Positions 23,561 through 52,774 of a stretch of DNA of 64,000 nucleotides are shown piece by piece (position 1 is the stretch's first letter; each line of letters starts with the position of its first letter). Below the pieces are notes generated by a model. It was given only the letters and a program-made list of their open reading frames with translations. It had not been told where the DNA came from and made no database searches. The stretch is from Prosthecobacter sp. SYSU 5D2 (lineage in GTDB: Bacteria > Verrucomicrobiota > Verrucomicrobiia > Verrucomicrobiales > Verrucomicrobiaceae): contig NZ_JBBYXL010000003.1 in NCBI RefSeq assembly GCF_039655865.1, positions 372,001 to 436,000 of the forward strand. The letters are read 5' to 3'. The translations under genes and the position numbers were made by a program.

Positions 23561-23568
23561 GAACTTAA

Positions 23569-26315: not shown

Positions 26316-26320
26316 CGTGT

Positions 26321-27903: not shown

Positions 27904-27907
27904 TTGA

Positions 27908-29100: not shown

Positions 29101-29119
29101 GGGGGGCGGAAAATCCGAA

Positions 29120-31491: not shown

Positions 31492-31549
31492 GGGTCAGTT
31501 TAAGATTTACTTGGATTCCAGACTTTGATAACGCCCGCAGCCAGCCGGG

Positions 31550-32890: not shown

Positions 32891-33052
32891 CTTTTAAAGG
32901 GCCGACGCAATTAATCTAAACTTTATGGACTTTGGTTTGTCCTTCAATTCATCCTGACCTTGGAGACAATAAAAGTGGCCGCCTGCGGACAGCCCTCCGA
33001 GCAGCCGGGCTCCAATTCCACAACCACTCAGGTCCAATTTGGCATAAACGGT

Positions 33053-33087
33053 TGTTTTAACAGATTTAGTTCTCCGTGTTTTAACAG
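33053..33087. repeat. Tandem 11-base boxes upstream of the Wzy-like gene
   Basis: TGTTTTAACAG occurs at 33053-33063 and again at 33077-33087, start-to-start 24 bases, in the gap between the Wzy-like gene (minus, starting 32890) and the GT4 gene ending at 33116. Each box contains TGTT-N2-AACA, an inverted half-site pair, so each may bind a dimer. Two and a quarter helical turns between them would put bound dimers on nearly the same face. The rest of the 225-base gap shows a GC-rich 60-base segment and AT-rich flanks, with no gene. Confidence 0.4.
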
Positions 33088-33115
33088 GATTTTCGACTTC
33101 ATAACCACAACGGCC

Positions 33116-34243
33116 TCAATGCTGCCCGAGTATGTCACCAGAAACCCGCGCAGAGGCGGAGGCCATGTTCACATCGGCATATACCTGGGCGCATGAAACA
33201 GCCGCAGACCGCCAGGAGCAGAGGTCACCCAGCCATTTTTGACTTTCTACGGGAAGCGTGGCAACTCCCTGTGAAACCGCAGCGGCCAGTTTGGTATAAT
33301 CCGCATCGTCACCAACATAAGCCTGAAATTTTTCCAACAGATCGCTACCCCCACCCACACAGGGAAATGCATAGATTGGCAGGCCGCTGCTTGCGGCTTC
33401 TAACAAAACAAGGCCAAAGGGCTCAACTTTTGAGGTGAACAGAAAAGCGTCAGCACATCCAAAAAGCTCGGCAGGATCTTCCACCATGCCGGTAAAAACA
33501 GGCAGGATGCCCAAGGATTGGTCCGCTAAGAGCTCTTTTAGCCAGGCCCCGTCCGGCCCGTCTCCCATCACCACCAGTTTAACCTGAGGAGAAAGGCACT
33601 TTGACACGCCTGCCAGCCGGTCCAGCCCCTTAGTCTCCCTGTCCAGGCGTCCAGCCCAGAGCAACAGGGTGTCACCCTCAGAGATTCCCAGACGTGACCG
33701 GACAGCACGACGGACATCAGCCTTCCTGCGAAAGAAACGCCGGCGGTCCACTCCGTTGGGAATCACGGTTAGTTTGCTCCCTGCCATGCCGCTGGAGGCC
33801 CAGCTTTCCGCCACCCAGCTGGAAATGGCAATGAGGTGATGGGTAGTCATCAGCGTCACCAGATGTGTCCACCACGCCGAAGAAAAAAAAAGTGCTGCGG
33901 GTGCGCCTACATGACCATGACTGACTTTAGCTATTCCCAGCCCCAAGCAGGCCAGTCGCGGCCATAGAATGCCATCGTGGTGATGGATGACATCCGGTTG
34001 CAGCCGCCTGACCAGACTTCGCAATGCCAGCAGCCCGCGGGTCCAGCGTGACTTGCGTGGGGCGGCACAGCAGATTTCAAAAGGCTCCAAAACCGCCTTT
34101 TCACTGGCGGCCGGATTTTCATAAAGACTGACCAGCCAGGCATCCATGCCCAGTTCCCTCTGAGCTTTGACCAGCGCTCTAGCCACGGTCAGGGAACCGC
34201 CAATGCTGGCATCTGAGCTTTGAACAAAATGCAAAATCTTCAT
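33116..34243 (-). CDS. Glycosyltransferase family 4
   Basis: 375 residues. MKILHFVQSSDASIGGSLT starts the fold; DVIHHHDGILWPRLACLG is the acceptor-side loop; LLLWAGRLDRETKGLDRL is the donor-site element and FTSKVEPFGLVLLEAASSGLP the EX7E segment. It is coupled to the following glycosyltransferase gene by an ATGA overlap, so they probably act in sequence on the same glycan. Donor and linkage unknown. Confidence 0.9.
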   Translation of the reverse strand: MKILHFVQSSDASIGGSLTVARALVKAQRELGMDAWLVSLYENPAASEKAVLEPFEICCAAPRKSRWTRGLLALRSLVRRLQPDVIHHHDGILWPRLACLGLGIAKVSHGHVGAPAALFFSSAWWTHLVTLMTTHHLIAISSWVAESWASSGMAGSKLTVIPNGVDRRRFFRRKADVRRAVRSRLGISEGDTLLLWAGRLDRETKGLDRLAGVSKCLSPQVKLVVMGDGPDGAWLKELLADQSLGILPVFTGMVEDPAELFGCADAFLFTSKVEPFGLVLLEAASSGLPIYAFPCVGGGSDLLEKFQAYVGDDADYTKLAAAVSQGVATLPVESQKWLGDLCSWRSAAVSCAQVYADVNMASASARVSGDILGQH

Positions 34244-35361
34244 GCCATGTTCTTGGAAAACGCAGCCGCGAGTCTCCTGGCGCGAACATCCCAGGTGTGT
34301 TCACCGGCCGCCTTTAGCATAGCAGGAAGACGCGCTCCGGGGCAGGCCTCCCTGCAGATCATCTCAGCCACCTGCTGCACAAAGCTGTCCTTCTGCCCTT
34401 TGATATGGATCATTTCATGAAATGAACTGACCTGGTCACAGCAGTCTGTCGCGACGACAGGTTTCCCTGCCGCCAAGTGATCATATAAACGCATGGGGGA
34501 GCAGGCACGGTTCAAGAGTGTATCCCGATAAGGGATCAAGGCCACGTCAAGGGCCTGCATCCAAACGGGAATCTTGTCATGTGGCTGCTGCCCTGCAAAC
34601 ACACACTTCGGGTGGGAAAGCAGCCGTGTCAGGCCTTCACTTTTAAAAGCCTTGTCCACACTTCCAACCAGCACCAGACTGCCCGTTTCAGCGAGATCAG
34701 CGCAGGATGCAATGAGATCAAAATCCAACCGGTCATTGATCCCCCCCACGACTCCGACCAGCGGCCGACGAAGTGTGGGAAAAGCATGAAAAAGATCGCC
34801 CATTTGCTGTTCATCCACCGCATCCAGACCTTTCGCATCAGTGGCGTTGGGTGAGACACTGACGCGGTCGGCAGATATTCCATATTCATGGACAGCGCGG
34901 TCTGCCAGCACCTGCGAGACAAAAAAGGCATGATTTACAGATCGGACCAGTTGCGCCTCCTTCTTTATTACTGTCTCACCACCCCAACCCTCATATTGTG
35001 TGTAATCATCGGAACAATAGTAGAATGTGGCCAGATGAGGTGATGCCAGTTTGACCAGTTCGACATAATGAAGTGAGGTCACCACCAAACCGTGAAGGCT
35101 TCCGATCTGATTTTGAGTGTGCTGCTGAACCAAGCTCCACAACCGTTTTCCAGTCCATTTTTGCCAGCGGGATGCCCAACCGGGGGGCATTAAAACCGGT
35201 TTCCCAAACTTTGCAGCAACCGAATTTGATGATCTTCCGGCGCGCAGGCGCCACGCAGCCAGGAGGTCCTGAGGTGCCAAACCGAGGACCGGCGTCATCG
35301 CAGACAAGGCCTCAAACGGCTTGGCACGCCATATCGTGTTAACGTCTGCGACGGCGATCAT
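34240..35361 (-). CDS. Glycosyltransferase (GT-B, exopolysaccharide type)
   Basis: 373 residues from the ATG at 35361, four bases after the FkbM stop; the frame extends to 35424 but would overlap that gene. The second half has the donor-site element PLVGVVGGINDRLDFDLIA and the motif PYRDTLLNRACSPMRLYDHLAAGKP, shared with GT-B proteins in succinoglycan and similar loci ('PlKlfEYLAaGkPVV'). The N-terminal half is more diverged and has a tryptophan-rich lead. The specific CAZy family is uncertain, since it matches GT1/GT4-like patterns only partly. Confidence 0.8.
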   Translation of the reverse strand: MIAVADVNTIWRAKPFEALSAMTPVLGLAPQDLLAAWRLRAGRSSNSVAAKFGKPVLMPPGWASRWQKWTGKRLWSLVQQHTQNQIGSLHGLVVTSLHYVELVKLASPHLATFYYCSDDYTQYEGWGGETVIKKEAQLVRSVNHAFFVSQVLADRAVHEYGISADRVSVSPNATDAKGLDAVDEQQMGDLFHAFPTLRRPLVGVVGGINDRLDFDLIASCADLAETGSLVLVGSVDKAFKSEGLTRLLSHPKCVFAGQQPHDKIPVWMQALDVALIPYRDTLLNRACSPMRLYDHLAAGKPVVATDCCDQVSSFHEMIHIKGQKDSFVQQVAEMICREACPGARLPAMLKAAGEHTWDVRARRLAAAFSKNMA

Positions 35362-35365
35362 AAAT

Positions 35366-36196
35366 TCAGCTCCTGGGCAGCAGAGCCACATTGGCCAGCA
35401 CCACACCAGAAGCGTTTTTGACATCTACGATCTGGCCAGGATTTCCTTCGTCATCAAGATGGCGGAGACACCAACCGGCAGATTCCGCAGCGCACAGAAG
35501 ATCACTCACGTCATATCCCGCATTATGGAGATTTTCAGGGCACAGTTCCACCAGCCCGGCCCGGCATCTGCCGCTTCGCAACAGCATATCCGCTCCGGCC
35601 AATACCGACGGCTCATGGCCCTCAACATCAATCTTCAAGAAAGCCACTTCGTCATCAAGGTATGGTTTGAGAAAACTGTCCAGACTGACCACGCTGACCT
35701 CCACGAAGGGTCCAGGTTCGCCATCCTCCGTCGTGACAAGGCGGTTGCTAGTAGGTGACCTGCTGTCATTAAGGAAACACTGCCGCCCATCTGCCTGACT
35801 GGCAGCGTACTGGCAGGGAATGACCCGGTCGGCATGGTTGCGCAGCAGGTTGGCCTTAAGGCAGGCAAAGCTTTCAGGCGAAGGTTCAAAGGCATGGACA
35901 ATGCAGTCCGGGCGCAGATGCGCCAAGATCATGGCCATGCTGCCAATATTCGCACCCACATCTAGTATGATGCCCCTGGAGCCGGCAAAGCTGCTAATAA
36001 AATTCACCTCAGCAACCGGCGGGACCATGCCCTGCGCGCTTCGGTACTCGCTGAAACTCCTGAACCCGCGCATCACATCCCCCGAAGGAAGTTTCACTCC
36101 GGGCTCCAGTCCTACATGATGAAGTTTCCATCGCAGCCAGTCCCGCATCATGCCTGGGACGGTGAACAATGTGCACACATTTTTAAAGAAGCCCAT
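35366..36196 (-). CDS. FkbM-family methyltransferase
   Basis: 276 residues. The SAM loop ILDVGANIGSMAMILA, then VHAFEPSPESFACLKANL, and LKIDVEGHEPSVLAGA fit FkbM. N-terminal 60 residues are basic and hydrophobic, as in the other copies. It is upstream of a glycosyltransferase by four bases and follows a methyltransferase gene, so three tailoring or transfer genes sit together. Role as sugar O-methyltransferase is inferred from family and location. Confidence 0.9.
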   Translation of the reverse strand: MGFFKNVCTLFTVPGMMRDWLRWKLHHVGLEPGVKLPSGDVMRGFRSFSEYRSAQGMVPPVAEVNFISSFAGSRGIILDVGANIGSMAMILAHLRPDCIVHAFEPSPESFACLKANLLRNHADRVIPCQYAASQADGRQCFLNDSRSPTSNRLVTTEDGEPGPFVEVSVVSLDSFLKPYLDDEVAFLKIDVEGHEPSVLAGADMLLRSGRCRAGLVELCPENLHNAGYDVSDLLCAAESAGWCLRHLDDEGNPGQIVDVKNASGVVLANVALLPRS

Positions 36197-36210
36197 GATT
36201 CGATCGGCTT

Positions 36211-37209
36211 TTATGGTTTTCTAACAACCACAGGCTTATGGCCTGAGAGAACTTGATCAAACATTCCAGGATGGCTGAGACATTCATATCCCCTGGACTT
36301 GAAAAACAAGATGGCGTCCATGACATCTATCGAAGCGCAGGCGTCACAGTCTGCTATAAAAACATCACTCCCCATATAAGGTTGCAATTCCTGATAATGC
36401 AGAGGCAGATGTGACCTTCCAAAATTCGCCAGCGCGCGCCATAGTCGGCGGGGCACACGCAGGCAGAACTTGACGCCCCTGTTGCGCAGGGCTGGCAATG
36501 AAATCTTCACAAGCTTGTCCATTCCTTTCAACTCTGAGTAGGAGCGAACGGGAATCAGCCGGTTTTGGATAAAGCTGCAGTTCCAGGCAGGATGCAAAAT
36601 GGCATAGCCGCCAGGCGCCAGCACCCTGTCAACCTCCAGAAAGGCAAGGTCCGGCCGGGGCACATGCTCCAAGGTATTGAAAGAAAAAACCATCTCCATG
36701 GAAGAGTCTGTGAGAGGGATGTACTGCGCATCTCCAACAAAACGCCGGAAGTTTTCAAAGCCCTCCGCAAAAACACTGGAGCAGCTATAATCCATGCCAA
36801 TGTACTTCGAGGAACAATCCGCAAAAATGCCCGTCCCGCAGCCGATCTCAAGTACCCAACCCCTAATCTTTTTTTCCTTTATGAAATGGCGCACCATTTC
36901 GCGTTCATGCGCCAGATAATCGGAGGCCAAATCTTCAAAACGGCTTCTCCCGCCGTAATGTTGAATATAAAATTTCTTCCTCTCCTCTTCCGTGATTTTT
37001 TCATCGCCCTCAATTCCCTCCAGAGGCAGCAAAACGGGCACTCCGGCAGTCAGTTGATAAACATTAGAGCTGAAAATTAAACTGCCAAACTCACGCTGCA
37101 ATAAATGCGGACAGATGGTTGCGGTGGAGTTCCTCTGCTTGCTGAGCTGGGTCGGGCATATAAACGGCACTTCATTTACCCAATCGCTATTTAGTAAAAT
37201 CGGAACCAT
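36211..37209 (-). CDS. SAM-dependent methyltransferase with degenerate Trm112-like N-terminus
   Basis: 332 residues. Residues 1-70 look like a Trm112/Zn-ribbon domain in spacing (FICPTQ, TICPHL, GVPVLL), but each CPxC pair has lost its second cysteine, so zinc binding is unlikely. Residues 115-200 are the methyltransferase core: VLEIGCGTG, then YIGMDYSCS, MVFSFNTLEHVPRPD and GGYAILHPAW. This two-part layout is common in polysaccharide loci. The DNA is AT-richer than the block average. A 395-base gap follows on the upstream side with gene remnants. Confidence 0.82.
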   Translation of the reverse strand: MVPILLNSDWVNEVPFICPTQLSKQRNSTATICPHLLQREFGSLIFSSNVYQLTAGVPVLLPLEGIEGDEKITEEERKKFYIQHYGGRSRFEDLASDYLAHEREMVRHFIKEKKIRGWVLEIGCGTGIFADCSSKYIGMDYSCSSVFAEGFENFRRFVGDAQYIPLTDSSMEMVFSFNTLEHVPRPDLAFLEVDRVLAPGGYAILHPAWNCSFIQNRLIPVRSYSELKGMDKLVKISLPALRNRGVKFCLRVPRRLWRALANFGRSHLPLHYQELQPYMGSDVFIADCDACASIDVMDAILFFKSRGYECLSHPGMFDQVLSGHKPVVVRKP

Positions 37210-37230
37210 ATATTTAATACCGGCAGTCGT

Positions 37231-37479
37231 TTAGCATTGGAGATCCTCATTCCTGAACATGGTGTTAGCCCATAACGGTCCTTCTGATCCTCTATAAGCT
37301 GCAGGAATGCCGAATCTGCGAAACCCGAGAACAGCTCCGCCTAGAGGTTGGTAAACCTTGGGCTTAAAACCAATACCCCTCACTTTCCAGGAAATCCAGG
37401 CAGACAGCATTCGAGATGTCAAAAAAGGGTTTTTATATTTTGGCCAAGGCCATGATGAACCGCCACTATATTGGCGTTC
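37231..37479 (-). pseudogene. Remnant of a coding sequence (3' end only)
   Basis: An 82-codon open stretch between in-frame stops, with no good start near its beginning, ends normally at 37231. It reads like real protein: PWPKYKNPFLTSRMLSAW near the start, then KPKVYQPLGGAVLGFRRFG and a Pro/Gly-rich end. Aromatic-, Lys- and Gly-containing composition and the lack of an initiation site suggest the C-terminal end of a gene whose 5' part is gone. No family was identified. The rest of the gap between 37480 and 37604 is AT-rich with no visible gene. Confidence 0.4.
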
Positions 37480-37604
37480 TTACTTCTGAAACAAGTCAGT
37501 TATTATTCAACTAAAAATACTGCTTCATATATTTGAGCAAGCAGCACCGATCATATGTCGCCCTCCATCAATTAAAGTAACCTTCAATTGAAACAGGATG
37601 TCCT

Positions 37605-38327
37605 TCATTCTTTTTTTGCTTCCCAGTATTGAGAACACTCAGGGACAGCCATTGGAAATCTGATGGGATGTGTATCAAACCCCCCAAAATTTGAATTTTT
37701 ATCCCTGTAACTGGATGGGATTACCTCACTAAATCCTGTTTTACGAATAAGTGACTCCAGCTCATTTTCTGAATATATATGCCGGTGATCATGCAGATAG
37801 AAAATATCATTGATCGGCTTGGTGTCATCTGGCTTTGAACGCACTTGTTCGATGAAATAATCAAGACTGGGGGTCGTAATTCGAATCCATCCCCCAGGCA
37901 TTAGAGCTTGAAAACATCTGCTGAGCAGAGCCTCACCCTGCTCTTTTGAGATATGCTCAATGACTTCTTCCAGATAAAAGACATCAATGGAATTGGGAGG
38001 GAAAGGCAGCTGACCCGTCAAATCGGCCCAGACATCACTTCTGGGGTCTATGTCAGCTGTCAGCCAACGTTCATGCAGCACTGAACCTCCACCTAAATTG
38101 ACAATATGGACATTCCCACTGACAAGCCATTGTTTAAGATATTTCCTGGTAACCCAAGGACCAACAAGACTCCAAAATAGAAAAGAATGCCGTCCAATGT
38201 AACTCAACACCGCATGCACATAACCATAACGCGAACCATAAAAATATAGGCGCTTCAAAAAAGAAGATGGCGGCAAAAGACGGCCCTCCATTGGATTATC
38301 TGTCACATGACAGGTTTTTTCCCTCAT
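37605..38327 (-). CDS. SAM-dependent methyltransferase, low-GC
   Basis: 240 residues. LGGGSVLHERWLTADIDPRSDVWADL is an atypical SAM site, where the usual acidic-Gly loop is reduced to LGGG and the acidic ribose-binding residue follows in ADIDP; FYLEEVIEHISKEQGE and GGWIRITTPSLDY are standard. This variant occurs in O-antigen-locus methyltransferases that act on lipid- or nucleotide-linked sugars. A possible later start is the ATG at 38291. Composition is visibly more AT-rich than flanking genes (about 43% GC in the sampled line against 57% near 2.1 kb), in keeping with recent acquisition. Confidence 0.75.
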   Translation of the reverse strand: MREKTCHVTDNPMEGRLLPPSSFLKRLYFYGSRYGYVHAVLSYIGRHSFLFWSLVGPWVTRKYLKQWLVSGNVHIVNLGGGSVLHERWLTADIDPRSDVWADLTGQLPFPPNSIDVFYLEEVIEHISKEQGEALLSRCFQALMPGGWIRITTPSLDYFIEQVRSKPDDTKPINDIFYLHDHRHIYSENELESLIRKTGFSEVIPSSYRDKNSNFGGFDTHPIRFPMAVPECSQYWEAKKE

Positions 38328-38408
38328 ACTACTTATATTATATTTTGGTTATTTCCTGACATTCGTGAAGGTTACGTCATCCACATTTCGGCTGGCTTGC
38401 CAGGGTTT

Positions 38409-38531
38409 TTAGCCAGGAAAAGATTTCAACTCAGCCACCAGCCGATCCCCGTAGCATTTCCAGGTGTAGTTAGCAGCCCGAGTTCTGGCAGCAATGAAAA
38501 GAGCTTTGTGGATTCCCGAATGAAATTCAAA
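38409..38531 (-). pseudogene. Remnant of a GT4 glycosyltransferase C-terminus
   Basis: A 40-codon stretch that starts directly behind a TAG and ends at a TAA contains AARTRAANYTWKCYGDRLVAEL. This strongly resembles the final helix of GT4 enzymes (alanine/arginine-rich, then YTW or FTW and a Leu-rich end), and the GT4 at 4891 in this window ends in the same way. There is no upstream GT4 body, so it is a decayed fragment. Identification rests on 22 residues, so it is tentative. Confidence 0.4.
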
Positions 38532-38708
38532 CTAATGTGGATCGTCTGGAATTGTCAGTCTGGCTCCTGACGGTATCGTCACACATTGGATTCCGCTGAA
38601 GAAACGCTGGTGCAACCTTACGAGAGTGAATAGGCCATGTCTCCGGCTCATTGCAAAAATAAACTTATTGATGCGTGGCAAATACCTCTGCGTTGGAAAA
38701 TTCGACAT
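38532..38708 (-). pseudogene. Small truncated ORF, possible methyltransferase N-terminus remnant
   Basis: 58 residues from ATG 38708 to TAG 38534-38532. The first half is basic and aromatic (LPRINKFIFAMSRRHGLFT, then LVRLHQRFFSG) and the end is VTIPSGARLTIPDDPH, a pattern like the lead into FkbM-type methyltransferases. The frame continues without a shift into the GT4-like remnant after the TAG, as if two broken genes were joined. It could instead be a genuine short gene; no ribosome-binding site stands out. The rest of 38328-38852 is AT-rich and shows nothing else. Confidence 0.35.
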
Positions 38709-38852
38709 GCCGCTTTATAAAAAATTGATTTTGTGATCCTCAACACAAGAAGCTTTGATTTTACTCATCATGAAAGAATAAGATGCCCGGTGCACCTGAT
38801 CTTGCCCCTCCATAGGGCCGTCTAATATTTCATTACCAACCTTCAGAATCCA

Positions 38853-41690
38853 TCAGTTTTGTTCTACCCTGAGTTTGACAAACACACGACCATTGATGGG
38901 ACAAATAATAACGCTTGAAACAGTTTCCGCCAAACTGGTTTCGCTTAATACAGATTCACTGCTGACATTTGCCCGAGACCACATCGTAAGATCATTGCTA
39001 ACCATGAGCTGTAACGTAAGATCAGACAGCCATTTAGAACGGCGGTATAGGACTTCAATCCTGTCCACGCCTTGGGAAATATTTCTCTGGAGTTTTACCT
39101 GAACCGGTGATGCGGTCGTACCTTCAGCGGCAAATCCCATTGCATACCTCATGAGATTCGTCTGACCATCTCCAGTATAACTGGCGCATGGACTGCTGAT
39201 CTCGGGATCACCCAGTTCCTCCTCTGTAAAATTTTCAATCTGCCAGTCGCTAAAGCTGCTGGCGGGCGATTCGAACGCCCCGATGTCATTGCGCCGTTTG
39301 AAAAATTGCCCGCTGTGATCTATGGCTGGTCCCAAGTCAAGGCCTGCGTTGATCAGCGGACTTCTGGGCTGAGGTCGCAGTCCGTCCAGCTCAGGATTTT
39401 CAATGTTGAAGCTGCCTGACTCCTGGCCCTTTGCCTGCCATTGGGAAAAGCTGAGGTTTTGACTGACATTATCTTCCTTGAACATGTGATGTATCTTCGA
39501 TTCTCCAAGCTGATAAGCATTGTGGCTAAACTGAAGACTGTCCTGGCTTTCAAAATTTCCAAACACGCTGGCTAAAGGCACTGACTCAGGCATCAGCACC
39601 AAATTGTTTCGGAAAACAAATCCCAATTCTCCTTCTCTCGTGAACAGAGAAGACTGGGGCACCCCCCCCAAAATATCCGTCACCTGCAGAGCGTCAAAAG
39701 AACAAGACTGGATGTCCACACGTCCATGAACAGGATTGCGGCCTAGAGTTCCGGAAATCACATGGATGCAGTGTCGCTCATTTAAGGAAGCCCCTGGGTA
39801 AACCTGGTTCATGCCTTGAAAAGTGCAACGTTCGGCCACAACATCTGACAATAAGGCGAGAGTACCACAGCGAGTCCCCTGGAGAAAGGTTTCCTTAACC
39901 CCTCCACCTTGAATATTGCCTTTGCCAAAATCGCAGTCAATGAACTCAAACCTGTCAAACTGTTGGGGTTCATCTGGAAAACCCATGTTGTGGCAATAAT
40001 AAACAGGATAATGCAGAGCCATCACTCCCTCAGCCGAGCCTATCAAACCCGAGTTTGCCAGGGAACGGCAGCGGTGAAAACGGTGAACGATTTGAAGATC
40101 CTCCTGCCAGTGGGTGAATGACACAAAAACAGACTGGCCACCAGGTCCTGGATAGGGGGAGCCTTGCTCACACTGGACATCATCAACCAATACATCGTCT
40201 CTAAGTCCTGCTTCTGCTATACCAATAAGGTGCTTGGACCCATAATACAGAAAGCAGTGCCTCACAACAGACTGTCCAGGAACCGCTGTGAATGCCAGAC
40301 AATAACTGCCGATCGGGTCATTGGTCAGCGCATGGGCCAGACAAGTCTTACCAGTGCGGATGTCTTGCACCCTGGCATTGGAGGCATTGATCAATACCGC
40401 CCCGCCATCTGAAAAATTATGGCTCCTTTCATACCGCTTCCCATCTGTCCTTGGGTCCGTGCTGCCGAAAGGATGCACATACAGGGTGATTCCGTCTGTC
40501 CAGAAAGACCCGGGCGTTGATGTCAGCGCTTCCTGGACAGAGGCAAACGAATCCCCCGTCGGATGATGCATGAATTTGTCATCCTCCCATAGCACGATGT
40601 GATCCTGCGTATCTGATGTTGCGAAGACATTGGTCGTGGCGGTCACCACCCAGGATGTGGCTGGCAGATCACGGTGACTTTTGATGCGGATCCATTCTTG
40701 CCCCTCCGCAGCCCTCACGTTAAGTCCGGGAGTGGAGAATTTCAGTGCAATTCCGTCGAGGTCCAGTTCCTGCCCCGCAGTATTGATAATGAGTGTATCC
40801 CCCTCTTCGTAACTGCTAGCGGGCAGCATACCTGTGTAGAGACTTTCCTCGTTCACTTTGGCAGCCGATTTCCAGGCAGTTTGCGGAGAGGTGCCATCAG
40901 CTTCATCGTCACCGCTTAGGGGATCACAATACCAGGTCAGTCTGGATTCCGGCTCGATCAGATCAGCCGGATAAGCAACGTCGGAGAAGTCATTCTCTTC
41001 AAAAGCATAGGCTGAAGGAGCGCCGACCCGGCCTTTGAGGAAAGTTCCATAGGACCAGCTTCCTGCGAACGTGTATCCAAGAGAGGCAATGCCTGCATGG
41101 CCGTTATCAATGGGTGCCCAGGACTGCATGGGCTGGCCGACGTGCTTGTAATAAAAACGCACATCTGCAGTCGTGCCTGACTTGAGATGGATGGCTATGC
41201 CGAGATATATCCACTGGTTATTCCATGACACGCCGGCAGGAGTAAATGAATTGAACATGATGCCGCCGCCAAGCTTGCCATCCTGAATGGAAATATAGGG
41301 GGAGGTGTTGCCATAAATGTCACATAGACCAAGCAGGTCCACATATCCTCCCTGCAAATCTTTCAGCATAAACCAGGCTCCAACGAATATCTTCCGGCGG
41401 TCAGAGGAAGCAAAATTATACCAGCCAACAGCAGGAGCCCCCTGCCCTCTCAGCTCTGCACTGGAACCTGGACTGCCAGCCAAGTGCGGACCGCCAGGCC
41501 GTGACAGCAAATTTCCAGCTACCGAGGTGAAATTTTCTCCCGGACTCTCCGGCGTGAGGGCCTCTGCTGAAGTGAACATTTCACGGTGCAGCAGCATCAT
41601 CTCCGCTCGCCCAGCCAGCTCTCCCAGCAGGAGCAAGACAGGAAGAAGCACCCAGAGTCTGAGGTGATTCGTGAGTGACTGCAGATGCAT
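38853..41690 (-). CDS. Large secreted LamG/parallel beta-helix protein with Verrucomicrobia-type C-terminus
   Basis: 945 residues from the ATG at 41690; the frame is open 25 codons further. A Sec signal peptide (basic start, then LWVLLPVLLLLGELAGRA) precedes a LamG/concanavalin-like region to about residue 240. The middle starts with TWYCDPLSGDDEADGTSPQTAWKSAAK, cut here as family-typical Asp/Gly-rich lead of a DUF1565-like right-handed beta-helix, and continues in repeated strand turns to about 830. The last 100 residues (TGDGQTNLMRYAMG, then LEVLYRRSKWLSDLT-like repeats and SNDLTMWSR) follow the common C-terminal cassette of secreted verrucomicrobial proteins. It may be a polysaccharide lyase or a surface adhesin; no catalytic motif was identified. 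It sits alone between AT-rich gap and GT2 gene. Confidence 0.8.
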   Translation of the reverse strand: MHLQSLTNHLRLWVLLPVLLLLGELAGRAEMMLLHREMFTSAEALTPESPGENFTSVAGNLLSRPGGPHLAGSPGSSAELRGQGAPAVGWYNFASSDRRKIFVGAWFMLKDLQGGYVDLLGLCDIYGNTSPYISIQDGKLGGGIMFNSFTPAGVSWNNQWIYLGIAIHLKSGTTADVRFYYKHVGQPMQSWAPIDNGHAGIASLGYTFAGSWSYGTFLKGRVGAPSAYAFEENDFSDVAYPADLIEPESRLTWYCDPLSGDDEADGTSPQTAWKSAAKVNEESLYTGMLPASSYEEGDTLIINTAGQELDLDGIALKFSTPGLNVRAAEGQEWIRIKSHRDLPATSWVVTATTNVFATSDTQDHIVLWEDDKFMHHPTGDSFASVQEALTSTPGSFWTDGITLYVHPFGSTDPRTDGKRYERSHNFSDGGAVLINASNARVQDIRTGKTCLAHALTNDPIGSYCLAFTAVPGQSVVRHCFLYYGSKHLIGIAEAGLRDDVLVDDVQCEQGSPYPGPGGQSVFVSFTHWQEDLQIVHRFHRCRSLANSGLIGSAEGVMALHYPVYYCHNMGFPDEPQQFDRFEFIDCDFGKGNIQGGGVKETFLQGTRCGTLALLSDVVAERCTFQGMNQVYPGASLNERHCIHVISGTLGRNPVHGRVDIQSCSFDALQVTDILGGVPQSSLFTREGELGFVFRNNLVLMPESVPLASVFGNFESQDSLQFSHNAYQLGESKIHHMFKEDNVSQNLSFSQWQAKGQESGSFNIENPELDGLRPQPRSPLINAGLDLGPAIDHSGQFFKRRNDIGAFESPASSFSDWQIENFTEEELGDPEISSPCASYTGDGQTNLMRYAMGFAAEGTTASPVQVKLQRNISQGVDRIEVLYRRSKWLSDLTLQLMVSNDLTMWSRANVSSESVLSETSLAETVSSVIICPINGRVFVKLRVEQN

Positions 41691-41776
41691 GATAAGCTTA
41701 CCAAGTGACCGATCGGCAAAGGAGTAGGTGGCGGCTGAAACAACCGTCTGACGCATTCCCATCAAAGACTACGAAT

Positions 41777-42703
41777 TTAGAAAGCATCACGGAACCCAAA
41801 CCTTCCGTTTAGGTCGCTCCGGCTGAAAATAGGCATGCGCGCCATGCGCATCCAGCCGAGGTATGTTTTCCAAGGCACAGGCGTGCGGCAGCGGGCACAA
41901 TTCCTCATCCCCTTCATTGCTGCCCACCACCAGCGGGGTTCCTTTATTACCCAGGCAGCGCCTACTGACCACGCATGACAAAACTGCCGGAGCACACGGA
42001 ACAGCGTGACCGGGACTATCCAGAGCCCGGGGCACCGCATCCAGACACTCCAGATTTCATTTCTCGCATTTAAATGATGGGTGCGCAGCTCATCACGGTT
42101 TGCCTGGGAATAATGGTGGCGAATGGTCAGTGCAGGCTCAAACCACACACTCCGGCCCAGATGATACACTTGCAGTGCATAGTCAGGCTCTTCGTAAGCG
42201 TGCAGAAAAAATGACGGGAACCCGGCGGTGCGAAGGTAGTCCTGCCTGCGCATGGCTGCGGCACCGTTCGCATAGGCGGCCACATAATGTCCGGGAATCT
42301 GGGGTGATCTGAAGGGCGGCACGTAGGAGCCGTCATCACGCAGTTCAGGAAATGTGACCACGGAAACTTCAGGATGCCGGGCAAAACATTCTTTGAGCCG
42401 GTCCAAAAAATCATCGTCCACCGGGTAGCTGTCATCATCCAGGCTCAGCACAATGTCCTCTGTGGCGGTGCGCAGCATCCGGTCACGGGAATAGATGGAG
42501 CCCAGATTCTTCTCGTTCACAAAAAGCTGACACATGCTGAAATCCGTCCTCACCATTTCCACCGTGCCGTCACTGCATCCATCAGCCGTGACCAATATTT
42601 CATCGGGTGCAGGATTGAGGCGCATCACTCTCTCCAGCGTCCTTCGCAAATCCGCACATCTGTTGCGGGTGGTGATCATGACAGCAATTTGCAAGTAACT
42701 CAT
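41777..42703 (-). CDS. Glycosyltransferase family 2
   Basis: 308 residues from the ATG at 42703; a start at 42781 would overlap the upstream stop as TGATG and add 26 non-family residues. IAVMITTRNRCADLRRTLE opens the GT-A fold, EILVTADGCSDGTVE follows, and IVLSLDDDSYP carries the DXD motif. A C-terminal extension of aromatic and basic residues (about 215-308) is typical of rhamnosyl- or galactofuranosyl-type GT2 members with amphipathic helices. Its start region and coupling to the next gene favour cotranscription. Confidence 0.88.
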   Translation of the reverse strand: MSYLQIAVMITTRNRCADLRRTLERVMRLNPAPDEILVTADGCSDGTVEMVRTDFSMCQLFVNEKNLGSIYSRDRMLRTATEDIVLSLDDDSYPVDDDFLDRLKECFARHPEVSVVTFPELRDDGSYVPPFRSPQIPGHYVAAYANGAAAMRRQDYLRTAGFPSFFLHAYEEPDYALQVYHLGRSVWFEPALTIRHHYSQANRDELRTHHLNARNEIWSVWMRCPGLWIVPVTLFRVLRQFCHAWSVGAAWVIKEPRWWWAAMKGMRNCARCRTPVPWKTYLGWMRMARMPIFSRSDLNGRFGFRDAF

Positions 42704-42780
42704 CTTGGCAGTTTTCCGGGATGCCGGGTAGGGGAATTGCGAATTAATTAGATTGGAGGATGGTGGACAGTCCGCGGCCA

Positions 42781-44016
42781 TCAGGCTTCAGAAAGCCTGC
42801 CATGGATGCTGCTGAGAGCAGAGGCAAGAATGCGCGCATGGCAGTCCCGGGTATATTGGAGGGCTCTGGATTTTGCGGCCATGGCCATGCGCGAGCGAAG
42901 TTCCCGGTCATGGGTAAGCGTCAGGATGGCCTGAGCCCATGCCTCGCTGTCTCTGGGTTCCACCACCAGGCCGCTGACGCCATGCTCGACAATATCTGCA
43001 CAGTAGGGAGAACAGATGACAGGGATGCCTGCCGCCATGGCCTCCAAAATGACGGCACCAAAGGAATCCGAAAGGGTGGGAAAAGCCAGGACGTCTGCAG
43101 TTTCATAAAGCTGGTTGATATCCACGCGGGGAACCCGTCCCAGAAAACGGATGGCTGAACAAAGCGGCTTGTGACGGACCACGTCGCTCACATCCCCGGC
43201 TGCGGTAAAAGATATCCGCCCCATGCCAGCACCCTGCGCGATGCGCTGGGCTGCCATGGCCAGATAATGGATGCCTTTCATGAGAGTACAACTTCCAACA
43301 AAGAGGACACTCCCAGGGTCGGGTCTGTTTTTGATGCTGAAAAAAGCCTCATCAATTCCGTAGGGAACCACATGGATGTGGGCTGCAGGGAAAAGTCCTT
43401 CCGCAACAATGTCCTCTTTGACCGCTTGAGTGGGGGCGATGACTTCGTCTGAAAGCTCACAAATGAACATGCGCAATCTTTCGGTGGGATTTGCACACGC
43501 CATGTAGGGAGGCTGAAGCTCCCAGTCCGGGAACCGGGCGTATTCATCCCGATGCACCTTCCAGTAGGAAGGCCGGACATAAAACTCAGTGACGACCCGC
43601 AACCCCTTCCGCCTTGCATGAGCAAGAAAAATTGGTGACCAGCCGAAGGAGGAGTATAACAAGTCCGCCTCACCCAGACCTTTTCGGATCATGGACATGC
43701 CAAGCATCCGCCCCTGGTTGCCAGCACCTGAGAGAGAGTCAGCCAGACTGTCCATGGCGGCCGAAATTGGAAACGTGCGGGTGAACGGCAGAACGCTTTC
43801 AGGAACTTTGCGGTTTTTCAGCAAGCTGAAACGCCTGCTCAAGGAAGAAATACCCGACAGCATGGATGCCACTTTTCCCAGCCCCTGGTTACCACACGCA
43901 TCGGTGTAAAAACCCGAAAGCATTTCATGTCTGGCGAGCGCCAGAGGAACAGCATAATTGTGCCTCGCGCCATTTTGCACGACAAGCACCCGGCACTCTC
44001 GCGACATGGTGGTCAT
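42781..44016 (-). CDS. Glycosyltransferase family 4
   Basis: 411 residues from the ATG at 44016, which overlaps the preceding stop as ATGA; longer frames to 44202 read through a Ser/Arg-rich stretch inside that gene. RVLVVQNGARHNYAVPLAL begins the fold, SVLFVGSCTLMKGIHYLAMA is the donor loop and FPTLSDSFGAVILEAMAAGIP the EX7E segment. It likely adds one sugar to the repeat unit in the cytoplasm. Donor unknown. Confidence 0.9.
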   Translation of the reverse strand: MTTMSRECRVLVVQNGARHNYAVPLALARHEMLSGFYTDACGNQGLGKVASMLSGISSLSRRFSLLKNRKVPESVLPFTRTFPISAAMDSLADSLSGAGNQGRMLGMSMIRKGLGEADLLYSSFGWSPIFLAHARRKGLRVVTEFYVRPSYWKVHRDEYARFPDWELQPPYMACANPTERLRMFICELSDEVIAPTQAVKEDIVAEGLFPAAHIHVVPYGIDEAFFSIKNRPDPGSVLFVGSCTLMKGIHYLAMAAQRIAQGAGMGRISFTAAGDVSDVVRHKPLCSAIRFLGRVPRVDINQLYETADVLAFPTLSDSFGAVILEAMAAGIPVICSPYCADIVEHGVSGLVVEPRDSEAWAQAILTLTHDRELRSRMAMAAKSRALQYTRDCHARILASALSSIHGRLSEA

Positions 44017-45065
44017 GCAGACAATCCCAGCATCCGATGAATAAGATTGAGATAGCTTCCCGCTACACGGGCAGGTTGAAATTGCTGCAGATGAGCTTCC
44101 CGGATTTCTTCCTGTTCTTCGACGCGCAAAGGCTGGGCTGCCAAATTTTCGATGGCTGCTGCCAGCGCTTCGACATTCCCATTGGGAACCGTCACTCCAC
44201 AAGGGCCTATGGCTTCCGGAAGACCACCATCGCTTGTACCGATCACTTCACATCCACAGGCAATCGCTTCCACCGCAACGACTCCAAAGGGCTCGGCCCA
44301 GAAAGAAGGGATTACAGCCACGTGGTGGCGGTTCATCAGTTCAGCGAGGGAATCACCGGTCACACGGCCTGCCAGACTGATGTGATCTGTCAATCCATGA
44401 GCCTTCACCGCAGCCATGATCTCGTCCCGACAAGGCCCCTCCCCCACAACCGTCAGCGGGTAAGCAAGACCTCTTTTTTTGAGGTGTGCCAGGGCCTCAA
44501 TCAGAACCAACGCTCCTTTTTCAGGCACCAGCCTCCCCACGAATATCAGAGACCCCGGCACGCGCTTAACCGGACGGATTCTGAAAATGGAAGATTCATA
44601 GGGATTGTAAATACAGGGAGCATCTCCGGTAACACTGGTCCCGACGGCTTTACTAATCACCACATTGGTGGCGCCGCGCAAGAGCAGGCGGCGCATAAAG
44701 TTAAGAGGTTGCTCAAGAATGCAGAAGCCGTGGTGTATGATCACCGTGGAGGAAGTCCGAAACAGTGCCGGCCATCCTAGATGGAGCGTGATGCCATGGA
44801 TCAACACGCAGTCGGCTTGCAGAAATTGCCATAGAAGCGTCAAAACGGAAGGTCTGCGTATGATTTTGTAGGGTCTGCGGTCTGCCGCCTCTGTGTCTGC
44901 CAGGGTGACCAGCGTGACATCCTGGCCAAGCGCGGACATTTCATCGGCCAAGACTGCCGCCACTGTTTCAAGACCTCCTGTCATTGGGTAAAATGGAACC
45001 GCCAGCATGAGAATGCGCAACGGCCGGATGCATGCATGACTGTTGTTGACCATGGGGCAGCTCAT
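44013..45065 (-). CDS. Glycosyltransferase family 4
   Basis: 350 residues from the ATG at 45065 (another ATG four codons later is possible); the longer frame to 45305 lies inside the next gene. RILMLAVPFYPMTGGLETV opens with the 'GG.E' element; SLIFVGRLVPEKGALVLIEAL is the donor loop and PSFWAEPFGVVAVEAIACGCE the EX7E segment. The upstream gene stop lies 11 bases before the ATG, so coupling is likely. Substrate unknown. Confidence 0.9.
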   Translation of the reverse strand: MSCPMVNNSHACIRPLRILMLAVPFYPMTGGLETVAAVLADEMSALGQDVTLVTLADTEAADRRPYKIIRRPSVLTLLWQFLQADCVLIHGITLHLGWPALFRTSSTVIIHHGFCILEQPLNFMRRLLLRGATNVVISKAVGTSVTGDAPCIYNPYESSIFRIRPVKRVPGSLIFVGRLVPEKGALVLIEALAHLKKRGLAYPLTVVGEGPCRDEIMAAVKAHGLTDHISLAGRVTGDSLAELMNRHHVAVIPSFWAEPFGVVAVEAIACGCEVIGTSDGGLPEAIGPCGVTVPNGNVEALAAAIENLAAQPLRVEEQEEIREAHLQQFQPARVAGSYLNLIHRMLGLSA

Positions 45066-45076
45066 CACAGGCACGG

Positions 45077-46450
45077 CTATTCTGTGCGGAAGGGTGCCCG
45101 GGCAGGCTCCGTCGCAAAACCGGTCTCCTGCAAACATGAGGCGTAAGTTTTGAGGATGCTGGCCGCTTCGTCTGAATATCCCCGCGTGTAACTTGCGTTG
45201 GCCAGCAGATTTTCCCGAAGGGACGCATCTGCAACAAACCGTTCCATTTGCGTGGCAAGAGCACCTTTTTCCAGCCAGTTGAAAAGCAGCCCGTTGTGGC
45301 CACATTGAATGGGCTCAGCAGCACTGGAATGGGTGGATGCAATCACAGGAGTTCCGTTAGCGAGGGATTCGACCACTGTCAGGGGAAGATTATCCAGCCA
45401 GACCGATGGAACAATCATGCAATGAATCTTTGAATGAGCCACGGCAATTGACTTTTCATCCGCCCCGTCAAACTCCCCCCATTCAATCCTCTCCTCGAAA
45501 GGCAGAAGGCAGCGCCGTGCGTCAGCAGCATACGGGCGGAACAGTTCACTTTTAGCGACGAACAATAGCAAACGGACATTGGGCCAAACGGCTGCAACCC
45601 TGGCAAAAGCCGCAGTCATCAGGTGAAATCCTTTTTCGTAAACAGGCCGTCCTGCATAACCAAAAACAATATCTCCCCCGTGCACTTTTTTTGACCGTGC
45701 CGGAGCAGCGTCAAATCCGTATGGGACATGGTCTATTGCCGATGGATTCACCCCATGAGCCCGCAATTTTTCAGACATTGCTATTGAGGGTGCTATCCAA
45801 CGGCGTGTGACCCGCAGAAATGCGGGCCAGTTTTCCAGAGCTTCGCCGAGCCTCTTCCGGTTGCCTGCTGCATCTCTCGCCACCGTTGCCACGAAAGGCC
45901 AATCCACGGCCCTTTCCGGCAGCAAGCTTGAAGCCCGCCGGACCCATCTGATCAGTGGTGTGCGGCCGCTCATCAGGCACGATGAGCATTTTTCCCGCCC
46001 TGGATTTCCCTCGCAAATATCCCCCTGCCCCGTCACCAAAGTGGATCTGGCGCAAAATGGACCAAAGTCCAGAGCAGTAAAAACAACGGGAACAGCCCCG
46101 GTTCTTTCCAAGGCTTCCCCTAGCTGACCATGCCAGCATTCATATTGGAAGACATGTATCAGGTCAGGCTCAAACTCCCTGCAGACAGCCAATAGAGCGG
46201 CGGCCACTTCAGTCTCGCCCCCCTTTGGGGTCAGCAAACTGTCTCCAACAGACAGCGACCAGGTGGGCATCCCATTCCAAACTTTTTTCCTGAGGCGGCC
46301 ATTGAAATTCTGCGCGGTCTCACCGTTAAAGACACCGCAACCAACCCCTGACCTGACCAGAGATCTGGCCACGCGCAAAGCCACTAAAGCCCCCCCGTTA
46401 AGCCCCCCGCTCAACGGAGGAAAATTCCCTGTTATAAACAGTACTTTCAC
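45077..46450 (-). CDS. Glycosyltransferase family 4
   Basis: 457 residues from a GTG at 46450, which begins VKVLFITGNFPPLSGGLNG; the frame opens earlier, within the FkbM gene, and the extra residues are not family-like. Between residues 160 and 240 there is a cysteine-rich loop (FCARSTLVTGQGDICEGNPGREKCSSCLMSG), split here to note four cysteines in two pairs, an insertion seen in some GT4 enzymes. IVFGYAGRPVYEKGFHLM and PSVWLDNLPLTVVESLANG form the donor half. Donor unknown. Confidence 0.86.
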   Translation of the reverse strand: MKVLFITGNFPPLSGGLNGGALVALRVARSLVRSGVGCGVFNGETAQNFNGRLRKKVWNGMPTWSLSVGDSLLTPKGGETEVAAALLAVCREFEPDLIHVFQYECWHGQLGEALERTGAVPVVFTALDFGPFCARSTLVTGQGDICEGNPGREKCSSCLMSGRTPLIRWVRRASSLLPERAVDWPFVATVARDAAGNRKRLGEALENWPAFLRVTRRWIAPSIAMSEKLRAHGVNPSAIDHVPYGFDAAPARSKKVHGGDIVFGYAGRPVYEKGFHLMTAAFARVAAVWPNVRLLLFVAKSELFRPYAADARRCLLPFEERIEWGEFDGADEKSIAVAHSKIHCMIVPSVWLDNLPLTVVESLANGTPVIASTHSSAAEPIQCGHNGLLFNWLEKGALATQMERFVADASLRENLLANASYTRGYSDEAASILKTYASCLQETGFATEPARAPFRTE

Positions 46451-46500
46451 AGGCGCCTTGGATTTTAAATGATCAGGCCAGCCTGACCACCCCGTACTCT

Positions 46501-47361
46501 TTAAACCGCATCGCCGGTTGCAGCCTGCTGTGGTCTGCATATGACGCGGCAATCGTAGTGCAGATCTGCCAATGCAGTCCTGTCCAGGCGTTTAAGTTCA
46601 CCATCCCAGATGGTGTAACCGCATTCCTCCAGCATTTCAGGAATGCGGGCAGGATTGATGCCACGCTTTACCAGCATGGAACCATGAATTTCAAGAAAAA
46701 GAACGGGACGCACCCTCCTTAAAAAGCCCAGGCTTGCTCCAATGGCCTCATATTCAAAACTCTCAATGTCGAGCTTGACGTGCGTCGGCTCAAAGCCTGT
46801 CCTGGCCACTAAAGACTCCAGTGTAAGTTGCGGCACTGACACAGTATCTGACCTGGCTTCTGAAACCGAAACAAAATAATCCCCTCCGAGGGGTCCGGTG
46901 GAAAGCATCTCAAGCTGGCCATCAGCATCTCCAATGGCACAGTTAATAATTGTAACCTGTCTGTCTGCACCGTTCATCTCAAGATTGGCCCGCAGGATGT
47001 CCGCCGCTTTGGGCGATGCTTCCACACACAGGATCTGGGCAGATTTCCCGGCGAAGTGCCTGCAGGCCAGTGCAAACAGACCATAGTGCGCACCCACGTC
47101 CAAAAGCTTCATTGCGGGTGTGCATTGGGATGCAAAAGCCTGAAGTTCTTCAGCCTGGGAGGCATCGCTCCTGAACACTTCAAAACAGCTCCTAGCAGCA
47201 GGATGGCACCACAGCTCCCACCCTTCTGCGGGACTAACTTTGCGCCTGGCTCCCGCCAGGAAGGCGATTCGGTGAAATATATACTCACCTGATCTGGCCG
47301 GACTGCGCAGCCAGTTTCTCAGAGTACGGGGTACAAACCTCCTGGCTAAATTGTAATTCAT
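46501..47361 (-). CDS. FkbM-family methyltransferase
   Basis: 286 residues. The SAM site LLDVGAHYGLFALAC carries His where FkbM proteins usually have Asn, followed by LCVEASPKAADILRANL and VKLDIESFEYEAIGASL, which lacks the usual Glu-Gly in the DxEG motif. These two changes put it in a divergent FkbM branch, perhaps with a different acceptor. It overlaps the flippase gene by ATGA, so it is coupled to glycan export. Confidence 0.85.
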   Translation of the reverse strand: MNYNLARRFVPRTLRNWLRSPARSGEYIFHRIAFLAGARRKVSPAEGWELWCHPAARSCFEVFRSDASQAEELQAFASQCTPAMKLLDVGAHYGLFALACRHFAGKSAQILCVEASPKAADILRANLEMNGADRQVTIINCAIGDADGQLEMLSTGPLGGDYFVSVSEARSDTVSVPQLTLESLVARTGFEPTHVKLDIESFEYEAIGASLGFLRRVRPVLFLEIHGSMLVKRGINPARIPEMLEECGYTIWDGELKRLDRTALADLHYDCRVICRPQQAATGDAV

Positions 47362-48902
47362 CTAAAAATAAGGGTAACACGGTGGATCAAGCGGTCACGC
47401 TGTGCCCTCTCCAGGACACCATACCATAATGCCACGGACAGCATGACCGAAGTCAGCGTCAGGGCGGCAACAACGTTCAGCCATACGCCATAAGATCCCG
47501 AAAAGCGGGAGATAAAAAGTGACATCCAGAAACTCACCCCAAGCAGGATCAGCATGGGCACCACCACACGCACCAAATATGAGCGCATTCCAATCTGCAG
47601 CCTTTGCAAAGCACGATGGACCATATACCAATGGTTGGTCAGCAATTGGGCAATCAAGGTTCCCAGCGCGATGCCCAATACCCCATAGCGGTTGCCGAGC
47701 AGCCAGGAGAGCAGCACTTTGAGACCTCCCGCAGTGAGCGCCCAGACCACAAATGCCTCATCCTCAGTCGCACGGGATGCAGTTGTGAGGATGTAGGCCT
47801 GCGCCTCCAGCAGAAGCAAAGCAAAGAACACGGTAGCAACGGGCAGCCCGATAAAGCTGTCCGGCCCCAGCCAAAGATCGAAAAACTGCGATCCCAGCCC
47901 AAGTATGGAGCCGCCCCCGGCAGCCATCACAAACATGCCAAGACGGGAGTTCCGAATGACGATGCGCTGAATTTCAGAAATCTCCCCGCTTTGCCAGAGC
48001 TGGGTGATGAATACTGCCGAGATCGCAGCGACCGTCACTGCCAGCACATTCAGATTTAAAAAGATCAAATAGGCGGCCCTATACATAGGCAGGCTTGAAG
48101 CCCCCCCCATCCTGGCGACGAACAGGTGATCTGTATTCAACACCAATGTGAAGCCAAGTGCAGTCAGCCAGGTCCGCAGGGCCAGAGGTCGCATTTTCTG
48201 CCAGATCCGCTTCTGCCACACGCCTTTCATCCTGGAGATCTCAGGGTATCCGCGCAAGGTAAAGGCAAGAAATACAAATCGCTGGGTGATTGCACCGGTA
48301 ACCGCCACCACGGCCAGGGTGACCAGGCCTCCGCCAAACAGCACCGCTACGATCTGGCCTGCCAGGGTGAGGGCATTGACAAAACTAAGCAAAAGAGAAT
48401 CCCACCCGACGTATCCCACGCCTTGAAGCAGACAGCTCCAAGGTGTGGCCCAAGTATTGACCGCATAACTTAAGCACAAGATTCCCCACGCAATCCAGAC
48501 TTCATAGGCCGGAATATCTTCAAGATTCAGCCCATTGAAATAAAGAGCCCCCAATCCGAAAGAGATAAGAAACGCAATGACTGCCAGAGCTTTGTAAATC
48601 CGCACACCTGTAGCCAGCACATCGCCTATTTCCGCCAGGCTTTCTTCATTGAGGCTTACCCCAGGATCAGATCCGCTCCTGCCTTTTGCAAACGCAATCT
48701 GCCGGGTTAACGTTGCTCCAAATCCCAGATCGAGAATGCCCATCGCAGCCCAGCTCTGGCCTAACAAAAGCCAGATCCCCAACTCCTCCTTCGGCAGATT
48801 TCTAAACAGAATGGGCAGCAACACCAGTCCCAGAACAATGGTGATCAGGCGGCTGAACCAGCTCGCTGCTGCTCCAAAGAAGATTCGTCTGGTAAAGGAC
48901 AT
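47358..48902 (-). CDS. Wzx-like polysaccharide flippase
   Basis: 514 residues and about twelve to fourteen membrane segments. The N-terminus (FFGAAASWFSRLITIVLGL, then LPILFRNLPKEELGIWLLL) matches the oligosaccharide flippase pattern, and the distribution of charged residues between helices is typical. It would flip undecaprenyl-linked repeats made by the surrounding glycosyltransferases. The neighbouring rfbB gene is 33 bases away. It differs clearly from the block 1 flippase, so the two probably serve different glycans. Confidence 0.9.
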   Translation of the reverse strand: MSFTRRIFFGAAASWFSRLITIVLGLVLLPILFRNLPKEELGIWLLLGQSWAAMGILDLGFGATLTRQIAFAKGRSGSDPGVSLNEESLAEIGDVLATGVRIYKALAVIAFLISFGLGALYFNGLNLEDIPAYEVWIAWGILCLSYAVNTWATPWSCLLQGVGYVGWDSLLLSFVNALTLAGQIVAVLFGGGLVTLAVVAVTGAITQRFVFLAFTLRGYPEISRMKGVWQKRIWQKMRPLALRTWLTALGFTLVLNTDHLFVARMGGASSLPMYRAAYLIFLNLNVLAVTVAAISAVFITQLWQSGEISEIQRIVIRNSRLGMFVMAAGGGSILGLGSQFFDLWLGPDSFIGLPVATVFFALLLLEAQAYILTTASRATEDEAFVVWALTAGGLKVLLSWLLGNRYGVLGIALGTLIAQLLTNHWYMVHRALQRLQIGMRSYLVRVVVPMLILLGVSFWMSLFISRFSGSYGVWLNVVAALTLTSVMLSVALWYGVLERAQRDRLIHRVTLIFR

Positions 48903-48935
48903 TGGTTTTGCTGACGGCGTGCCCCCTACCCCTGA

Positions 48936-50803: not shown

Positions 50804-50953
50804 GACACGGTTAAGATCCCTGGCCTCCCCCAGCCAGCCAAGCTGCCGCCTCTGGTCGCCCGGCATGAGGCGCCACTGACAGGATGATAATGGGGGTTTT
50901 CTGCCTCTTCAGGCATGAATAAGGGGGAGACTGTATCACGCTCATTATCAGCG

Positions 50954-52745: not shown

Positions 52746-52774
52746 ATGCCAGTAATCAATGATAATCCCATCTG

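Follow-up and report, generated by a model that had tools for sequence, protein, structure and literature searches.

A probably secreted beta-helix protein of Prosthecobacter, paired with putative polymerase type, as a candidate enzyme acting on the polymer of its own exopolysaccharide locus

To our knowledge, few host-encoded matrix enzymes are matched to the polymer of their own host. Most described enzymes that cut matrix polysaccharides come from bacteriophages, according to a study of WceF from Pantoea stewartii (PMC7949094); the same text presents WceF as a beta-helix stewartan hydrolase that has a Tat signal and is encoded in the stewartan cluster, reports longer polymer in its knock-outs as well as clumping of the enzyme with its polymer, and speculates on acquisition in co-evolution with phages. 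RbmB of Vibrio cholerae is reported to be an alpha-1,4-lyase acting on Vibrio polysaccharide (PMC11637428). Here we describe P0001, a gene for a probably secreted beta-helix protein in an exopolysaccharide locus of Prosthecobacter sp. SYSU 5D2, located within a stretch of 64,000 nucleotides (the window; assembly GCF_039655865.1, contig NZ_JBBYXL010000003.1, positions 372,001 to 436,000 of the forward strand). Presence and clade of this putative depolymerase follow the putative polymerase type across genera, even where the two genes are apparently apart (genome G090), and we give a probability of roughly 0.6 to the reading that the protein is an enzyme trimming or modifying the polymer of its own locus, in the manner of WceF.

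Like WceF, the predicted product of P0001 is a right-handed, tailspike-like beta-helix that would be exported and is encoded inside an exopolysaccharide locus; it differs from WceF, with its Tat signal, by its head, an added C-terminal cassette and the lack of a known activity. RbmB, which acts on the biofilm polysaccharide of its own host, is the top-ranked (tied) solved fold match of the P0001 body, whereas its chain is smaller, has the known alpha-1,4-lyase activity and is only 10% identical. We think that P0001 may work like these two proteins, with no sequence tie to either in the searches made; WceF was not among the 6 PDB chains found at E <= 1 with the body profile, in a PDB copy where its presence is unconfirmed. 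No description of such a protein was found in the Verrucomicrobia and Prosthecobacter exopolysaccharide literature, in a search that had most subscription journals outside its coverage. P0001, its parts and the gene with which it is paired are the following.

38853..41690, minus strand: P0001, a 945-codon gene for a probably secreted beta-helix protein (open reading frame; full-length homologues)
41604..41690, minus strand: signal-peptide-like N terminus, residues 1-29, with a basic start and the core LWVLLPVLLLLG (sequence and hydropathy)
40974..41603, minus strand: beta-rich N-terminal domain, about residues 30-239 (alignment A5, 9 members)
39291..40973, minus strand: right-handed beta-helix body, residues 240-800 (model, fold comparison and alignment)
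38856..39281, minus strand: generic C-terminal cassette, residues 804-945 (alignment A6)
31550..32890, minus strand: polymerase A, a putative repeat-unit polymerase named from its 7 hydrophobic spans and its position (no Pfam family)

The frame of P0001 runs on the minus strand from an ATG at 41690 down to a stop at 38853 with no internal stop (use of an upstream TTG start would give 970 residues). Full-length relatives are found in three congeneric genomes (57, 55 and 52% identity) and in two more (30 and 31%); because the full-length frame is conserved in other genomes, P0001 is a real gene and not a chance frame. That it encodes a beta-helix protein, probably secreted and paired with a putative polymerase type, is likewise well supported. 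Its start, MHLQSLTNHLRLWVLLPVLLLLGELAGRA, is signal-peptide-like by hydropathy (maximum 2.68 over 12 residues). The head that follows consists of about 210 beta-rich residues, alignable in all nine members tried; none of these nine matched a Pfam family, and the best hit of a sequence comparison with the PDB had an E of only 0.15. At the other end, a cassette of about 140 residues (W..F..., DG..N....G, S.DL..W, F.RL) recurs on large frames, both in this genome, where it is found at 13 places with P0001 included (E <= 1e-4) on open frames that span 364 to 6480 residues, and in many others of the order. Residues 809-945 had no match in Pfam or NCBIfam, and we take the cassette to be a general export or anchoring part, not particular to P0001. 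An earlier note on this DNA had proposed a 945-residue beta-helix protein in a glycan locus, with a LamG-like head and a verrucomicrobial C-terminal cassette: the intact minus-strand frame, the AlphaFold2 model and fold comparison bear out the first claim and the 13 genomic occurrences the last, while the head holds as a beta-rich domain whose likeness to LamG is one of appearance alone and unproven.

A profile of the body (A3, 12 sequences) places the family in at least 11 of the 386 genomes of the order, with at least 12 copies, a lower bound obtained by scoring up to three candidates per genome. In a phylum-wide set of 387 genomes the full body was found in only three, all already known, and G615 of that set gave motif-sized matches only. 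An unrooted tree of the body has three groups: clade I (the window's genome G000, G034, G013, G011, G069, G090 and G209; support 1.0 against the rest), clade II (G018, G019 and G112; 0.999) and clade III (two copies of G237; 1.0).

Within the genus, the helix gene is present in 6 of 48 genomes and polymerase A in five, namely G000, G034, G011 and G013, all of which carry a clade I helix, and G056, which has none; the G013 match continues beyond a stop codon close to where it ends. Polymerase B, the protein that occupies the polymerase A slot of G018, is found in three genomes of the genus: G018 and G019, which both have a helix of clade II, and G059, a fragmented genome that has none. A helix thus accompanies either polymerase in 6/8 genomes, versus 0/40 genomes that have neither (one-sided Fisher p = 2.3e-6, not corrected for phylogeny and with G059 treated as helix-free). 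Outside the genus, polymerase A is found in G069, G090 and G209 (47%, E 2e-118 to 5e-108; G090, 47%, 2e-110; G209, 47%, 5e-108) and was not found in G112 or G237; polymerase B is found in two copies in G112 (41 and 35%) and as a weak match in G237 (34%), and was not found in G069, G090 or G209. Helix clade consequently agrees with polymerase type in 10 of 10 clade I and II genomes (seven A, three B), which is one arrangement in 120 under random dealing, calculated by hand with relatedness ignored, and genera g1 and g3 each hold both pairings. In G090, polymerase A lies on another contig (L130) with other glycan genes, so that the pairing outlasts apparent unlinking in this draft genome. This pairing is the strongest evidence that the product of its polymerase is what the helix acts on or binds; by the same token, the specificity of the enzyme might be read from the polymerase type.

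As with WceF, the family is found within, or co-inherited with, exopolysaccharide loci: 9 of the 12 copies sit among exopolysaccharide genes (the neighbors of G237:C41 being judged by eye), and the six Prosthecobacter genomes with a helix, among them that of the window, all have it in one syntenic locus. The gene order of G069, from another genus, is similar, and the helix gene of G112 adjoins homologues of the window genes at 30304, 29120 and 27908 (43-48%). The neighbors of G237:C41 resemble, by eye, Wza, Wzc, EpsI, Wzx and a glycosyltransferase, none of which matches a window protein; the helix contig of G209 (5.2 kb) is too short to show a gene setting.

AlphaFold2 models built from five sequences are poor for the whole protein (predicted local distance difference test, pLDDT, 51) and moderate for the body (residues 240-810; pLDDT 67.3, predicted template modeling score 0.74). 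Both its strand pattern and its fold matches mark the body model as a right-handed parallel beta-helix, a predicted fold class that is well supported. Its best solved match is RbmB (9ozl; Z 23.8, root mean square deviation 2.9, 294 aligned, 10% identity), followed by NosD (Z 22.8), AlgE4 (22.8), the polysaccharide lyase (PL) family 6 enzyme 7o7a (22.3; root mean square deviation 3.6, 338 aligned) and the Sf6 tailspike (22.2), with rows within 1 Z counted as tied. The architecture is therefore PL6-like, and the body belongs to the same fold class as the PL6 alginate and chondroitin lyases and the AlgE4 epimerase, from which it differs by having no sequence profile match. The top Foldseek hits are the glycoside hydrolase (GH) BT_1002 (E 4e-6) and the capsule lyase of Klebsiella K1 (E 1.3e-5), at low template modeling scores (0.25-0.38), and a viral structure library yields 27 matches at E <= 0.001, several of them named capsule depolymerase, tail fiber or tail protein. 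Most of the 50 fold matches listed are glycan-active; the fold class is, at the same time, common to lyases, hydrolases, epimerases and adhesins, and does not choose among these.

Conservation within the body is extensive, with 84 residues identical in 11 of 11 full-length members, including the window and phage-module copies (the cut-off row L034, G237:C41, was left out of this count). Strongly conserved polar residues sit on the helix strands, and invariant positions of the central coils include K448, T449, K486, H487, Q506, E508, Q509, Y513, Q519, H567, N568 and Q577, among them the K448, K486-H487, E508-Q509, Y513 and H567-N568 set. As the only invariant acid in residues 417-665, E508 may speak for a mechanism of the K/H/Y type and against a hydrolase with two carboxylates.

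P0001 matched no Pfam family at E <= 10, and single-protein searches of Pfam and of PDB sequences gave nothing; the 12 body sequences gave four weak Pfam matches (DUF5123, Beta_helix at E 0.0034, ORF_2_N and MNHE), none of them PL6. PL6 enzymes have a profile in Pfam and use catalytic Lys and Arg together with calcium-binding acids in the groove. In the P0001 family, K448 and K486 are invariant by alignment; membership of PL6 was not accepted, as neither P0001 nor the 12 body sequences matched a Pfam profile of that family. The nearest NCBIfam model is that of lacto-N-biosidase (LnbX, GH136), which matches two of six members (best E 1.4e-4) and scores 13.4 bits with P0001 at a cut-off of 2500, so that membership of GH136 is not supported either. 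An entry motif, GxDxxDGxxPxxAWK, and a late segment are common to the family and LnbX (profile A3, E 2.7e-6); taken alone, the two shared stretches score 0.011 and 0.55 (best PDB match), and both lie outside the central coils. A scan of genome contigs with P0001 alone found no relative, while alignment A1 gave nine loci, of which four are true relatives (L031-L034) and the other five match over only 29-60 residues around the same motif.

Taken as a mechanism, P0001 would be a glycan-active protein with specificity for one polymer, secreted and probably retained at the surface, which recognizes and most likely cleaves the exopolysaccharide of its own locus, trimming, releasing or remodeling it as WceF does with stewartan and RbmB with Vibrio polysaccharide. 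Polymer binding and the active site would both be located in the groove of the beta-helix, the beta-rich head may be a further glycan-binding part, and the C-terminal cassette, common to other large frames of the genome, would direct export or retention; we infer all four of secretion, cleavage, chemistry and surface retention.

Several observations weigh against the protein being such an enzyme. Both polymerases are putative, the structure models are of moderate confidence and come from five sequences, and the autotransporter Vag8, NosD and two adhesins, PfbA and pertactin, are also among the fold matches. Neither P0001 nor the body members reach the cut-off of any PL or GH profile in Pfam or NCBIfam. 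G056 carries polymerase A and the greater part of the locus but no helix: only 65 bases separate its orthologue of 41777 from the next gene, a glycosyltransferase like 42781, which leaves no helix gene at that place, and none was found elsewhere in that genome. G056 is also without close counterparts of several inner locus genes, and may make a different polymer. In G059, polymerase B occurs with no helix, which may be a false negative in a genome of about 1230 contigs and 87% completeness, with polymerase B on a 3.9 kb locus. The frequency of polymerases without a helix is known for the 48 genomes of the genus. Finally, the helix gene of G090 lies among unrelated genes (for a GDSL lipase, a VIT/VWA protein and others), and no polysaccharide gene was seen on its 19.7 kb contig.

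Because G056 and G059 have a polymerase without a helix, the helix is probably dispensable for synthesis, and the polymer can probably be made without the helix protein; this dispensability fits a trimming or remodeling role better than an obligatory step. The counter-case of G090 loses much of its force because that genome carries the matching polymerase A on another contig. The earlier note had named the occurrence of the helix in loci without polysaccharide genes as grounds for giving up its proposal of a locus-specific lyase, and G090 is the one such occurrence. Of that proposal, action on the polymer of the locus is backed by co-occurrence with the polymerase; the lyase part is not, since no PL profile matches and the fold is common to other classes, among which a lyase is one candidate.

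The foremost alternative, which we hold to be unlikely, is a non-catalytic, polymer-specific surface lectin or adhesin whose helix binds the polymer of the locus and, together with the cassette, holds it on the cell. PfbA and pertactin have the same fold, the cassette recurs in other large frames, and pairing with a polymerase would suit binding as well as cutting; moreover, WceF itself is reported to clump with its polymer as well (PMC7949094). On the other hand, 84 identical body residues, with clustered K, H, E, Y and N, exceed in our judgment the usual demands of binding, and the cassette-free copy in a phage module is hard to explain as an anchor. Improbable in turn is a non-cutting enzyme that modifies the polymer, such as an epimerase or another beta-helix tailoring enzyme of the AlgE4 kind. 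AlgE4, whose substrates are uronic acid residues, ranks high in the fold comparison (Z 22.8), and several methyltransferases of the locus would decorate the polymer; however, that fold match is common to many other activities, and no sugar dehydrogenase match was found among the 20 locus proteins scanned, although one could lie elsewhere. A scavenging enzyme directed against a foreign glycan and merely hitch-hiking in the locus would suit the G090 copy among unrelated genes and the restriction of the family to 11 of 386 genomes of the order, but is made very improbable by the pairing with polymerase type, which holds in G090 with the genes on different contigs.

The second copy of G237, P0002 (contig G237:C15, L077:5441-7942, minus strand, 833 residues), relates the family to phages. 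Its identity to the copy in the polysaccharide region of the same genome is 70% for the head and 55% for the body, the body comparison being limited to 364 positions by the cut near the end of the other copy's contig. P0002 lies on one strand with genes for a terminase (E 2.9e-11), a portal (6.6e-27), a head maturation protease (2.3e-18) and a head scaffold (2.6e-5), 26 bases after a repeat-rich frame that by eye resembles a tail fiber; its start, KKLLILLSLICLQSSVYA, is signal-peptide-like, and it has no C-terminal cassette. The family thus resembles phage tailspike depolymerases in fold and through this one member of a phage late module, and differs in that the window copy is chromosomal, lying among glycosyltransferases and methyltransferases, and in that even the phage-module copy has a signal peptide. 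Such a peptide is not expected on a virion spike and weakens the idea that P0002 is a tailspike of the virion; P0002 is no less likely to be secreted by a lysogenic or infected cell.

Searches of viral sequences returned little: tblastn of INPHARED with P0001 gave no match, viral contigs searched with A1 gave matches at two loci, short or weak in each case (64% over 25 residues; 27%), and the same contigs gave none with A3 or P0002. From the G237 module, the phage capsid candidate had no match in viral contigs, nor did the protease and the tape-measure candidate in INPHARED (capsid and tape measure being named by eye). Regions L077 and L133 of G237:C15 hold, as an observation apart, a phage head and late-gene module without relatives in INPHARED or IMG/VR in the few searches made.

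A hitherto unnamed Verrucomicrobiales family of beta-helix enzymes, matched to polymerase type, of which phages of the same hosts carry a secreted late-gene version, is a tentative proposal whose phage part comes from one contig of one genome. If it were true, host and phage would have one depolymerase family in common, and either the host tamed a phage enzyme into a biosynthetic locus or phages took a matrix-trimming enzyme from the host as a released, cassette-free weapon or lysis aid. With relatives both in the polysaccharide region of G237 and in a phage module of that genome, the proposed exchange of the enzyme between phage and host can be tested directly.

The locus that surrounds P0001, its ends and its border are listed below; the Wzx, RmlA and RmlB names are our presumption from the sequences.

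21068..50866, minus strand: exopolysaccharide locus (Pfam on 20 proteins, and synteny)
21068-23560, minus strand: O-antigen-ligase-domain (Wzy_C/TPR) protein (Pfam)
47358-48902, minus strand: presumably Wzx-like (no Pfam match)
48936-49916, minus strand: presumably RmlB-like (outside the Pfam scan)
49913-50866, minus strand: presumably RmlA-like (outside the Pfam scan)
51084..52745, plus strand: FGE-sulfatase-domain gene bordering the locus (Pfam; matched in 42/48 genomes of the genus at E <= 1e-100)

By Pfam, the locus contains glycosyltransferases, methyltransferases (two of FkbM type), the Wzy_C/TPR protein and a Glycos_transf_4 membrane transferase; methyltransferases are found at 35366, 36211, 37605 and 46501. 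P0001 is flanked by a glycosyltransferase (41777-42781) and a methyltransferase (37605-38327), all on the minus strand. One weak terminator-like site lies 3' of P0001, with two found in the stretch versus 0.6 expected, and is not used as evidence.

The idea that each polymer type of the genus has its own secreted enzyme found no support in the six helix-free loci read (G023, G016, G068, G028, G014 and G058; 20 to 40 kb each), where no other large secreted enzyme was noticed from the first 60 residues of frames longer than 450 residues without a window homologue, no domain search being made. The other six sampled genomes were uninformative: in the stretches sampled from G061, G003, G062 and G010, no frame matches a polysaccharide gene of the window, and G008 and G021 offer less than 10 kb.

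The ends of the locus are kept across genomes, that is, the rml-like genes and, in several genomes, the transferases at 23569-31491 (the window, L027, L029 and L090-L104), and the inner polymerase and glycosyltransferases vary between species, a pattern of serotype-like switching in Prosthecobacter. Positions 51084-54496 (plus strand) form a divergent border made of the FGE-sulfatase-domain gene and a weakly TPR-like gene; the former is also present in G061, G003, G062 and G010, where the adjoining stretch shows no frame matching the polysaccharide genes of the window. Elsewhere in the window, a second glycan gene group (2023-12588) includes a frame of 565 residues (3197-4894, minus strand) that combines Exosortase_EpsH and DUF3485 (EpsI-like) domains.

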